Source of the DNA: a virus | Length of the DNA stretch: 25,731 nucleotides | Strand: one strand, 5' to 3' | Virus record (IMG/VR): IMGVR_UViG_3300027793_000262 | Location: 1-25,731 of that record | Part shown: in pieces, positions 7,739-25,488 of the stretch | Position numbering within the stretch: the stretch's first letter is position 1 | How the letters are laid out: the number at the start of each line of letters is the position of its first letter | Notes under the pieces: model-generated | The model's input: the letters and a program-made list of their open reading frames with translations, nothing else | The model's database searches: none | What the model was told of the DNA's origin: nothing | Program-made: the position numbers and the translations under genes

Positions 7739-8479
7739 CTATCTAGGTGTAATGATTTTCTTATCAGGGGTGATAAGTTTTGACTTAGGCTCTTCCTTAG
7801 GTTTACCAAAGAATGCGTTGTAATAATGTTCATCAAATGAGAACCGCTTCATATGTGGGGCTAATGCACCAGTATGAGCATATAGTGGAATCTCTGCTTT
7901 ATCGCATAGGGCAAAGAAAAATATATCTTCACCTATAAACTTAGTTCCTCTACCCATTTCCATAAATACTTGTCCATCTTGAGATGCTTCACGAACCTTT
8001 GGTACGATACTGCGGTGCATTAATACAAATCCCATACCCGCCGCATCAACCTTAATTAATTGATTTACTGGCATTGGGTGAACTCTGGTTAATCCAAACC
8101 CACCCTCATCTCCAACTATAAAGTTAAAGATTGTAGGCATCGGAATCATTAAAGGTTCTTCTGGATTATCTGTAGTAAAATATATTCCAGTAATAATTGG
8201 ACGCTTTTCAGCATCCTTGTTATCCCATAATAATTTAAACTTTTCTGGACTAATTACTACATCTGAGTCTACCCATAGTAGCCATTCGTAATCAGTCTTA
8301 TCATACCAGTAATCAATTACTGTCTGTCGTTGTCTGGCAATTTGGTTGCCTTGACTTCTTAAAGATGTAGCAAATTCTACGCCAGACTTTAACATAACAT
8401 CTGTTACGCCTTGCATAAACTTGCCATCTACCATTCCATTATCGCACCATACCAGTGCAATAGAATCTTTTTTGCTCAT
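7739..8479 (-). CDS. GT-A-fold glycosyltransferase, copy 2
   Basis: 246 residues, with AGGGGAC directly upstream of the ATG. It carries the same ordered motifs as the gene at 1651-2355: WCDNGMVDGKF near the N-terminus, GNQIARQRQ (44-52), the DxD motif in WLLWVDSDVVI (Asp71-Ser-Asp73), AAGMGFVLMHRS (about 147-157), FIGEDIFFF (about 181-189) and IPLYAHTGALAPHMK (about 197-211). The two proteins are the same length up to a C-terminal extension here (KPKEEPKSKLITPDKKIITPR) that is lysine-rich and probably disordered. They are diverged paralogues, not a recent duplication. The pair brackets the connector and fibre genes. The likely reaction is transfer of a sugar from a nucleotide donor to a virion or cell-surface acceptor, and the acceptor is unknown. 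Confidence 0.8.
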   Translation of the reverse strand: MSKKDSIALVWCDNGMVDGKFMQGVTDVMLKSGVEFATSLRSQGNQIARQRQTVIDYWYDKTDYEWLLWVDSDVVISPEKFKLLWDNKDAEKRPIITGIYFTTDNPEEPLMIPMPTIFNFIVGDEGGFGLTRVHPMPVNQLIKVDAAGMGFVLMHRSIVPKVREASQDGQVFMEMGRGTKFIGEDIFFFALCDKAEIPLYAHTGALAPHMKRFSFDEHYYNAFFGKPKEEPKSKLITPDKKIITPR

Positions 8480-19922: not shown

Positions 19923-20492
19923 CTACTTAGAATATTGTATTTTAGTAACTATTGGTCCACCTGTATAGATGTCCCATTTAGTTGATATACTTATCGCTTT
20001 TTTAATAATTTTTTCTGCTTGTATTGCAGTTTCAACCCTGTCAACTCTAAGTGCTTCCATAACACCAATAGCGATGTCCCCACCGCTACCAGAGTAATAG
20101 ATACCGCGAACATCACGGTCCCAAGAGTAATCCTCAAAAATAGGATAAATGATTCCGCGAATGCTAATAAGAAATTGTGAATCATGCGCCGCTGCATCGC
20201 CGTCTTCTTTCATGTCGTAACCTGCATCGATAAACAGTTTACGCATGGCAGGTATAAATTTCTTGGTTACAAATAAATCTAGATTTTCGCCTGCTCCTGG
20301 TCTCGGTGCTTTCCATCCATATTGTAATAGATTTGAGCCTCGACCTGCGCCAGAGCCTGCAATTAATATTCCGTTGTTCTCAACAATCTTTGGCGTAGCC
20401 ATATCGATTGGACGACCAGAATCATCTGAAGAGCGTGAGTCGCATCCAATGACAGACCATCCGTCGCCTTGAATAGCAGCAAGTGTTGTCAT
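19923..20492 (-). CDS. HslV/proteasome-like Ntn protease, probable prohead maturation protease
   Basis: 189 residues starting MTTLAAIQGDGWSVIGCDSR after a GGAGGGG site. Removing Met1 would expose Thr2. Aligning Thr2 with HslV Thr1 puts Asp18 exactly on the conserved Asp17, and Lys35 one residue from the conserved Lys33. The second half keeps the family landmark GSGGDIAIGVMEAL (GSGG 135-138), which matches the GSGG.yA....AL segment of HslV, and then IIKKAISISTKWDIYTGG, equivalent to HslV's A..IA.DICIYTN. The length is that of HslV (about 175). No partner ATPase (HslU/Mpa-like) is present in the window. Its place between portal and scaffold/capsid is where prohead proteases normally lie, so cleavage of the scaffold and capsid during maturation is the likely role. 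Confidence 0.8.
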   Translation of the reverse strand: MTTLAAIQGDGWSVIGCDSRSSDDSGRPIDMATPKIVENNGILIAGSGAGRGSNLLQYGWKAPRPGAGENLDLFVTKKFIPAMRKLFIDAGYDMKEDGDAAAHDSQFLISIRGIIYPIFEDYSWDRDVRGIYYSGSGGDIAIGVMEALRVDRVETAIQAEKIIKKAISISTKWDIYTGGPIVTKIQYSK

Positions 20493-24243: not shown

Positions 24244-24269
24244 CGGAGTCTTAAACGGAGCGACTCCGT
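24244..24269. repeat. inverted repeat CGGAGTC/GACTCCG with nested hairpin
   Basis: CGGAGTC at 24244-24250 pairs with GACTCCG at 24262-24268. A shorter, mutually exclusive hairpin ACGGAG-CGA-CTCCGT occupies 24255-24269. The GC-rich arms stand out in an AT-rich setting, as expected of an operator or of a structured leader in the leftward transcript. There is no T-run long enough for an intrinsic terminator. Confidence 0.5.
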
Positions 24270-24688: not shown

Positions 24689-24717
24689 TTGACTTCTTAG
24701 GGGTCGTGTGGTATAAT
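24689..24717 (+). promoter_or_regulatory. rightward promoter P1
   Basis: TTGACT (24689-24694), 17-base spacer, perfect TATAAT (24712-24717). It is the best sigma70-type promoter in the window. The surrounding GACTTGACTTCTTAG is repeated exactly 70 bases downstream in P2. Confidence 0.75.
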
Positions 24718-24732: not shown

Positions 24733-24748
24733 TGTGATGTATCTCACA
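24733..24748. promoter_or_regulatory. GlxR/CRP-like box B upstream of P2
   Basis: TGTGATGTATCTCACA is a perfect match to TGTGANNTANNTCACA. Its centre lies 18.5 bases before the P2 -35, the same distance as box A to P1. It also sits just downstream of the expected P1 start, where a bound regulator could block P1. Confidence 0.7.
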
Positions 24749-24758
24749 CCGACACGAC

Positions 24759-24787
24759 TTGACTTCTTAGAATAGGCGTGGTAAGAT
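24759..24787 (+). promoter_or_regulatory. rightward promoter P2
   Basis: TTGACT (24759-24764), 17-base spacer, TAAGAT (24782-24787). Shares 15 identical bases with P1 around the -35. Confidence 0.65.
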
Positions 24788-24841
24788 ACGCAGTATCACA
24801 ATTAAATAAGGTTAGGCAGTTCGGATAGGTAGCCTAAATAA

Positions 24842-24859
24842 GTGTGAACTAAATCACAC
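24842..24859. promoter_or_regulatory. GlxR/CRP-like box C upstream of P3
   Basis: TGTGAACTAAATCACA (24843-24858) is a perfect match to TGTGANNTANNTCACA, and flanking G and C extend the inverted repeat to GTGTGA/TCACAC. Its centre is 29.5 bases before the P3 -35, one helical turn (11 bases) further than in P1 and P2. Confidence 0.7.
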
Positions 24860-24879
24860 CGAATATATGGCGTGTCGAG

Positions 24880-24908
24880 TTGCTAAACTAGATTAAGTGT
24901 GAGATAAT
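24880..24908 (+). promoter_or_regulatory. rightward promoter P3
   Basis: TTGCTA (24880-24885), 17-base spacer, GATAAT (24903-24908). It is the closest of the three to the first rightward gene and is followed by the second direct repeat. Confidence 0.55.
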
Positions 24909-24932
24909 TACGCAGTAATAACAATTAAATAA

Positions 24933-25030
24933 GGTTAAGTAGTCAAGTAGTGGTTAGGCTTGATTAGATTACTAGTAGCAGTAGGTCGCCTATGGTATCA
25001 CGACCCTAATCACTACTTGATTACTTAACC
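24933..25030 (+). other. 26-bp stem-loop in the leader of the first rightward gene
   Basis: The arms 24933-24958 and 25005-25030 are complementary over all 26 positions if the two G-T oppositions (24942/25021 and 24953/25010) are read as G-U pairs of the rightward RNA. The loop is 46 bases and can fold further (GTCG 24985-24988 with CGAC 25001-25004). The stem ends seven bases before the GAAAGGA ribosome-binding site. It could be an RNase III-like processing site, an antitermination (put-like) element, or a translational control structure. There is no T-run after it, so it is not a standard terminator. Confidence 0.75.
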
Positions 25031-25050
25031 CCTAGTGAAAGGATAGAGTA

Positions 25051-25380
25051 ATGCCGTATAACCCTTACGGGGTTAGCGGTAGTATTATCACACCCCCTAG
25101 AGATGTTAGGGTATCTAAGGCTTGGCATGGTAGCCGTAGCCGTAGGTTCTCCGAAGTCGTGGTGCGTGATAAGTCGGGCAACATAATCGCAGTAGTCGAA
25201 GATAGTCCTGCGGTTAAGTTAGCGAAGCGTAGTCGCAAGTCTGCGCAAGTCGCTACCCCTGCTACCCCTAAGCCACTAACCGAAGCAGAATTGCGGGCTA
25301 TTGCGTTAGAAGAACGCAGACTACAATTCGAGCATGAGCAAGCGCAGAATTATCGTAGATTAGTCGGTGAGTATAACTAG
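25051..25380 (+). CDS. first rightward (early) gene, basic protein of unknown function
   Basis: 109 residues from an ATG with GAAAGGA seven bases upstream. The N-terminal MPYNPYGVSGSIITPPRDVR leads to a compact middle (FSEVVVRDKSGNIIAVVEDS) that suggests a small beta-hairpin. A basic linker (KLAKRSRKSAQVATPATPKP) follows, then a charged C-terminal helix (LTEAELRAIALEERRLQFEH). No family is recognised. It is transcribed from the tandem P1-P3 promoters through a long structured leader, so it is probably an early product, and the basic linker would suit nucleic-acid or host-protein binding. Codon use includes many TAG/CTA-rich triplets like the surrounding non-coding DNA. Confidence 0.65.
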   Translation: MPYNPYGVSGSIITPPRDVRVSKAWHGSRSRRFSEVVVRDKSGNIIAVVEDSPAVKLAKRSRKSAQVATPATPKPLTEAELRAIALEERRLQFEHEQAQNYRRLVGEYN

Positions 25381-25389
25381 TAGCCGATA

Positions 25390-25440
25390 GTCGTAGCCGA
25401 TAGGTTCGGGTTCTCTAGGGTTCGATACCCTACTACGACA
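25390..25440 (+). ncRNA. tRNA-like three-arm fold lacking full D and anticodon arms
   Basis: GTCGTAG (25390-25396) pairs perfectly with CTACGAC (25433-25439) like an acceptor stem, followed by an unpaired A. TAGGG (25416-25420) and CCCTA (25428-25432) enclose the canonical seven-base T-loop TTCGATA, directly abutting the acceptor strand as in a tRNA. Between them CCGA/TCGG (25397-25409) makes one short hairpin. A full tRNA needs about 25 more bases, so this is either a tRNA remnant, an attachment-site-like tRNA 3' end, a tRNA mimic, or chance. Confidence 0.4.
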
Positions 25441-25448
25441 CGCCATAG

Positions 25449-25488
25449 GTCAAGGGTGCTTGACTTGTAGCCGTAGGTATGATATACT
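25449..25488 (+). promoter_or_regulatory. rightward promoter P4 with overlapping inverted repeat
   Basis: TTGACT (25460-25465), 17-base spacer, TATACT (25483-25488), reading towards the micropeptide gene. GTCAAG (25449-25454) and CTTGAC (25459-25464) form a 6-bp inverted repeat that covers the -35, as a repressor site would. No CRP-type box is present here. Confidence 0.65.

Follow-up and report, generated by a model that had tools for sequence, protein, structure and literature searches.

Organisation of the rightward early leader

The DNA analysed here, referred to as the window, is an IMG/VR virus record of 25.7 kb (25,731 nucleotides) from a freshwater contig. Its terminase, portal, head and other virion-type genes are read leftward, and a long hairpin at positions 24933–25030 is part of the leader of the genes read rightward. 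By terminase, the closest named phage records are OX376640 and OX376641 (about 75% identical), which are the cultured 'Ca. Planktophila' phages E7 and F5 (PMC10202952). Judging from this terminase kinship, the host likely lies within 'Ca. Nanopelagicales', which are among the most abundant freshwater bacteria and for which two such phages are in culture (PMC10202952). Neither the leader DNA nor the first rightward gene, ORF1, has a match among named phage records.

Three promoter-like sites stand in tandem on the + strand ahead of the hairpin. The first (TTGACT-17-TATAAT, 24689–24717) and the second (TTGACT-17-TAAGAT, 24759–24787) are kept in relatives. The third (TTGCTA-17-GATAAT, 24880–24908) reads TTGACT-17-TAGAAT in several relatives; transcription from it would begin about 20 nt ahead of the hairpin. 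Perfect CRP/GlxR-like palindromes of the form TGTGA-N6-TCACA lie upstream of the second site (24733–24748) and of the third (24843–24858), and both are retained in many relatives. The initial transcribed sequences that follow the second and third promoters (24787–24820 and 24909–24943) are 89% identical (ACGCAGTA...CAATTAAATAAGGTTA). The motif GACACGCC, present at 25437–25444 and as its reverse complement at 24869–24876, recurs in many relatives, its sites being found near early promoters and at the 3′ end of tRNA-like elements. By inspection, a conserved motif, ACAATTAAATAAGG, directly 5′ of the hairpin (24921–24934, + strand) appears as ACAAGTAAATARRG and similar sequences in diverged relatives. 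The motif ACAANTAAATARRG is present at the foot of most hairpins of the family described below.

ORF1 (25051–25380, + strand; 109 aa, pI 10.1) starts with an ATG at 25051 and is preceded by a Shine-Dalgarno-like GAAAGGA at 25037–25043, which lies outside the hairpin. Directly 3′ of ORF1 is a tRNA-like three-way junction (25390–25440, + strand), followed by a further promoter-like site (TTGACT-17-TATACT, 25460–25488, + strand) that is found at the same place in the relative L134.

A long hairpin that is not due to chance

A preliminary description, made from the letters of the window, had proposed two fully pairing 26-base arms whose deviations from Watson-Crick pairing are all G-U. The arms are exact: 24933–24958 and 25005–25030 form 26 uninterrupted pairs around a 46-nt loop, with 92% Watson-Crick complementarity, and the remaining two positions are G-U on the + strand, with the 5′ arm supplying the G and the 3′ arm the U. 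Folding the + strand of 24933–25030, a check which that description had called for, gave −46.1 kcal/mol (z = −8.5), and 0 of 200 shuffled sequences folded as low. The − strand, in which both G-U positions become A.C mismatches, gave −37.8 kcal/mol. With loops of up to 100 nt, the longest uninterrupted stem elsewhere in the window is 17 bp, and four random 25.7-kb sequences matched in dinucleotide composition reach 15–16 bp. Given these stem lengths and the z-score of the fold, the hairpin is confirmed and chance is excluded as its origin. The stem ends at 25030 and the GAAAGGA begins at 25037, so that the spacing of seven bases given earlier is right within one base.

Scanning the same genome for a second copy of the hairpin returned none with a convincing score, and neither an intrinsic terminator nor a tRNA gene was found at the hairpin locus (ARAGORN called no tRNA). 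The stem is followed by CCTAGTGAAAGG, and a terminator-type U tract is absent 3′ of it. A search of the window against Rfam 15 gave no match at the gathering threshold, only sub-threshold miRNA and mascRNA scores. The miRNA models concerned, mir-26 (E 0.0056) and mir-251 (E 1.9), are animal families scoring far below their gathering scores, and the likeness to these precursors is one of a long stem only and not of kinship.

Compensatory change in relatives

We fetched near relatives with ORF1s 67–98% identical to that of the window and found more by loop patterns. Relatives that carry the window's loop, here type A, have much of the stem rewritten with the pairing kept, which is the compensatory change that the preliminary description had suggested looking for: among 11 distinct hairpins 12 pairs are compensatory, 98.1% of cells are paired and covariation is 0.270, compared to 0.138 when shuffled and at most 0.058 with slid partners. 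One A.C or C.A mismatch position recurs in this set. A second group, type B (L020, L034 and L088 among others), shares this architecture but differs in its loop letters; compensatory change affects 15 of its 35 pairs. L119 and L123 matched the type B pattern and were left out; they fold without a long stem.

Diverged hairpins were sought upstream of terminase relatives and by scanning for the core, and their outer-stem sequences are unrelated. We trained a covariance model, R1, on six type A cores and searched 42 sources with it. Outside its training set it matched L128, L129, L097, L086, L079, L081 and L102 (E = 6e-14 to 2e-5), with one strong match per genome where the element is present. 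Type B members gave no R1 match in the 42 sources, and types A and B are linked here by architecture, position and following gene, not by R1. By eye, L077 falls between the two, with type B-like letters and a UCG loop. The genomes of L101 and L118 (the latter type B) likewise gave no R1 match, nor did the cultured relatives E7 and F5, so that the element is not essential to the wider group. In the diverged set (16 distinct members) 16 of 21 pairs are compensatory and covariation is 0.595, compared to 0.238 when shuffled and at most 0.136 when slid; 96.1% of cells are paired, a figure that is outweighed by the slid control because the alignment was fitted to R1.

Pair columns with at least one G-U number 17 compared to 4 with A.C (one-sided binomial p = 0.004), in a count that covers P1 of type A and the core alignment, includes some near-relative columns twice and omits type B, which carries a few fixed A.C positions. 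Symmetry of the DNA alone predicts equal numbers of G-U and A.C, so the excess of G-U makes the sense RNA the likely selected molecule. The earlier hint of selection on RNA rather than DNA thus gains support, from the strong compensatory change as well as from this bias. Dyads and palindromes are common in the region, and a DNA-level element kept for its dyad symmetry (a cruciform, an operator or the hairpin of a replication origin) might be considered. We regard it as very improbable, given the excess of G-U over A.C columns, a core that is asymmetric and non-self-complementary with one-sided bulges, and a + strand that folds 8 kcal/mol better than the − strand. The compensatory pattern shows that in a group of freshwater actinobacteriophages the leader specifies a structured RNA, read rightward near the 5′ end of the putative first early transcript and kept by compensatory mutation.

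A nested hairpin with a conserved core

From the aligned relatives, the element is a nested hairpin in which a sequence-free closing stem surrounds a conserved core. On this evidence the loop is no spacer: it houses the most conserved part of the element, which the preliminary description had missed. Both arms of the outer stem P1 (24933–24958 and 25005–25030) show compensatory change. Inside P1, C24959 faces C25004 in a conserved C.C mismatch, followed by P1b, in which 24960–24962 pair with 25001–25003 (also compensatory). J1 (24963–24966; AUUA here, AYUM in the family) faces a single A at 25000. The 5′ strand of P2, GAUUAC (24967–24972), pairs with 24995–24999, leaving one bulged U here, and is compensatory in diverged members. 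J2, UAGUAGCA (24973–24980), is a nearly invariant one-sided bulge of 8 nt. It leads into the P3 hairpin GUAGG-UCG-CCUAU (24981–24993) and a conserved G at 24994, after which the returning strand (24995–25004) supplies the 3′ strand of P2, A25000, the 3′ strand of P1b and the mismatched C25004.

Across the family P3 has five pairs and a UCG loop (UAG in L102), P2 five or six pairs and P1b three. J2 varies to UAGAAGAA in L097 and to UAGUAACA in L102. The C.C mismatch is retained in the window, its near relatives, L126, L128, L129, L097, L086 and L079, and gives way to a pair in L081 and L102. Beyond the core the stem is free in sequence. In the window and some near relatives the minimum-energy fold instead pairs J1 with J2 (ACUA/UAGU), an alternative that is lost or clearly weaker in L079, L081, L102, L097 and L129. 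We therefore adopted P2, with its compensatory changes, as the common structure.

Position relative to promoter and gene

In the window, 24 nt separate the end of the third promoter-like site from the stem. In most relatives the distance from the −10 box to the stem is about 11–24 nt (counted by eye, with predicted start sites). It rises to about 60 nt in L126, L128 and L129, where an extra structured element of about 50 nt lies in between (L126:4204–4237, L129:4312–4353, and in L128). This upstream element consists of a variable stem enclosing a conserved core, AACCCC...GGGAGCGTCC. The stem lies 20 nt before the start codon in the window, compared to about 75–100 nt in diverged members (by eye), and the latter carry a TTGACA-type promoter-like site between hairpin and ORF1. 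In L086, L102, L077, L126 and L128, a CAAGT at the hairpin's foot has its complement in an ACTTG overlapping the −35 box of the following promoter; in these leaders the stem could extend into that promoter.

The variable distance from hairpin to gene and the intervening promoter-like site argue against translational gating, one of the roles first proposed. That role does not fit the window either, where the ribosome-binding site is unpaired. Instead, the position suggests that the hairpin acts on the young transcript or on RNA polymerase and not on translation of the next gene. Since the distance to the promoter is steadier than that to the gene, the core is probably read by a host factor that works at the beginning of the transcript.

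The separate promoter-like sites given to the RNA and to ORF1 in diverged members also bring to mind a trans-acting non-coding RNA, perhaps in a ribonucleoprotein with ORF1, for which co-transcription in the window's clade would be secondary. A closing stem round a conserved core is typical of free-standing RNAs, but the hairpin has no terminator or U tract after it and, in the window's clade, reads straight into ORF1. We consider such a separate RNA rather improbable.

ORF1 and the two core types

At all loci checked the RNA is followed by ORF1, which in L121 is strongly diverged and was recognised by eye; the cultured phages that lack the RNA lack ORF1 as well. In relatives it is likewise small and basic (99–123 aa, pI 10.1–11.4). 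A leader RNA followed by the gene for a small basic protein is the gene order of nutL and N in phage lambda, and the hairpin may be the binding site of the ORF1 protein, either in an antitermination pair like that of lambda N or as an autoregulatory site. The likeness to lambda extends to a linear motif followed by a hairpin and then the gene; the differences are the size of the hairpin (about 70–100 nt, with internal loops) and the incongruence between core types and ORF1 types. ORF1s 69–72% identical to that of the window carry the type B core, whereas ORF1s only about 30% identical carry type A. On the ORF1 tree, type A is the core of the deep clades, and type B must have arisen two or more times. 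This mismatch makes ORF1 unlikely as a specific reader of the core, although some other role of ORF1 is possible. Pfam yielded no match to ORF1 above cut-off and PHROG none at all, its predicted structure is of low confidence (mean pLDDT 63) and has no Foldseek match, and no RNA-binding fold was recognised. Overall, we hold binding by ORF1 to be unlikely, though not negligible. The same core with very different ORF1s, and a different core with similar ones, again point to a host factor as the probable reader.

A tRNA-like element 3′ of ORF1 and possible processing of the early message

The junction at 25390–25440 has a 7-bp acceptor-like stem, a 4-bp hairpin and a 5-bp arm with the 7-nt loop UUCGAUA, and resembles the acceptor stem and T arm of a tRNA. 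Its family form is a 7-bp acceptor-like stem, a short hairpin and a 4–5-bp arm closed by a 7-nt loop starting UUC. The Rfam mascRNA model scored 22.6 bits on the element, under its threshold of 42.5. When 25 selected loci (274 kb) were scanned with a descriptor, 18 proved to have the element, far above the chance rate, with one per locus except for two in the locus of the cultured phage E7. The scan gave two additional matches, one of them probably due to chance, and the control gave 1 match in 1.37 Mb. Besides the window, the element is present in L034, L079, L081, L086, L088, L101, L102, L095, L126, L129, L020, L022, L121, L077, L130 and L131, either immediately after ORF1 or between other early genes.

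Together with this element, the leader stem could bracket the ORF1 message as an RNase III processing site or an mRNA-stability signal. Ribosomal RNA operons are punctuated by processing signals of this kind, and in the window a 26-bp perfect helix stands 5′ of ORF1, with a tRNA-like junction 3′ of ORF1 that is conserved in many relatives. The helix also resembles RNase III sites of the T7 type, long perfect helices between a promoter and an early gene. Here, in contrast, only the window's clade and type B have the long helix, and it is the core that is conserved. P1 has 11 bp in L126 and L128 and is shorter or interrupted in many diverged members, and an uninterrupted helix of about 20 bp or more, as an RNase III site would require, is not conserved among the relatives. 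The letters of the internal loops are conserved though RNase III would have no need of them. As to stability, the predicted unpaired 5′ tail of about 20 nt would give no protection of the end. The RNase III-type processing proposed in the preliminary description may thus hold for the 26-bp stem of the window, but not as the conserved function, because the long stem is clade-specific and diverged members keep the core with a short or interrupted P1. We give processing or stabilisation a low probability as the role of the element.

A promoter-proximal RNA that may act on host RNA polymerase

Among the explanations considered, the one that best fits the comparisons is a promoter-proximal RNA acting on host RNA polymerase in the manner of put, an assignment we hold tentatively and with less than even confidence. 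Action on the polymerase would be the simplest mechanism involving a host factor. The nascent hairpin would bind host RNA polymerase during elongation, or a Nus-type factor, and so enable the enzyme to run through pauses or terminators of the early region, in the way of the put RNA of phage HK022 (putL, putR). In the window's clade the closing stem would have grown to 26 bp and is perhaps cut by RNase III, as an add-on and not as the ancestral role.

The put RNA of HK022 acts in cis, has conserved unpaired letters and works without a dedicated phage protein (PMC9378689). The leader element resembles it in its conserved unpaired letters and in lying just downstream of an early promoter-like site, and to this extent the earlier suggestion of put-like antitermination may hold. 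HK022 put binds the zinc-binding domain of the RNA polymerase β′ subunit and suppresses termination; it comprises about 70 nt in two tandem stem-loops and occurs after both early promoters, whereas the leader element is one nested hairpin of 98 nt that occurs no more than once per genome. Neither a tandem pair of stem-loops nor a second copy turned up when looked for, and we therefore do not class the element as put. On a replication primer structure, another role in the preliminary description, the analysis brought up no evidence.

Other observations weigh against action on the polymerase. In the relative G001 the rightward early genes span only about 6 kb and have several promoter-like sites of their own, and we found no convincing internal terminator in that region; the need for antitermination is thus not evident there. 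In addition, the element always accompanies ORF1, which would equally fit a role tied to ORF1, and in L126, L128 and L129 another structured element separates promoter and hairpin.

Should the put-like reading of the 5′ element hold together with that of the tRNA-like element as a minimal tRNA-mimic 3′ processing signal, the first early gene would be bracketed by two undescribed RNAs. We put this combination forward as speculative and of low probability; if true, it would amount to a compact RNA-based module for early expression in phages of very abundant freshwater bacteria. Deep covariation and a conserved core, in a structured RNA outside every Rfam family, point to early control at the RNA level, and the small size of the core makes it amenable to binding, probing and structural work. 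Searches of open-access literature returned no fitting description of such a leader RNA or of tRNA-like punctuation in such phages. Scanning 84,980 bacterial and archaeal species genomes for the core pattern gave two matches, in Anaerolineae and Sphingomonadaceae MAGs, which is about what chance gives.

Other features of the window

Two paralogous glycosyltransferase-like genes (1651–2355 and 7739–8479, both − strand), both assigned to PHROG 34859, occur in this one phage. A gene for an HslV-family peptidase-like protein (19923–20492, − strand) adjoins the portal gene. Upstream of the terminase gene lies a stem-loop, CGGAGTC-TTAAACGGAGC-GACTCCG (24244–24268), with TATATA repeats on its flanks. 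It is possibly a packaging or terminator site, and similar hairpins are found in L090, L129, L130 and L131.
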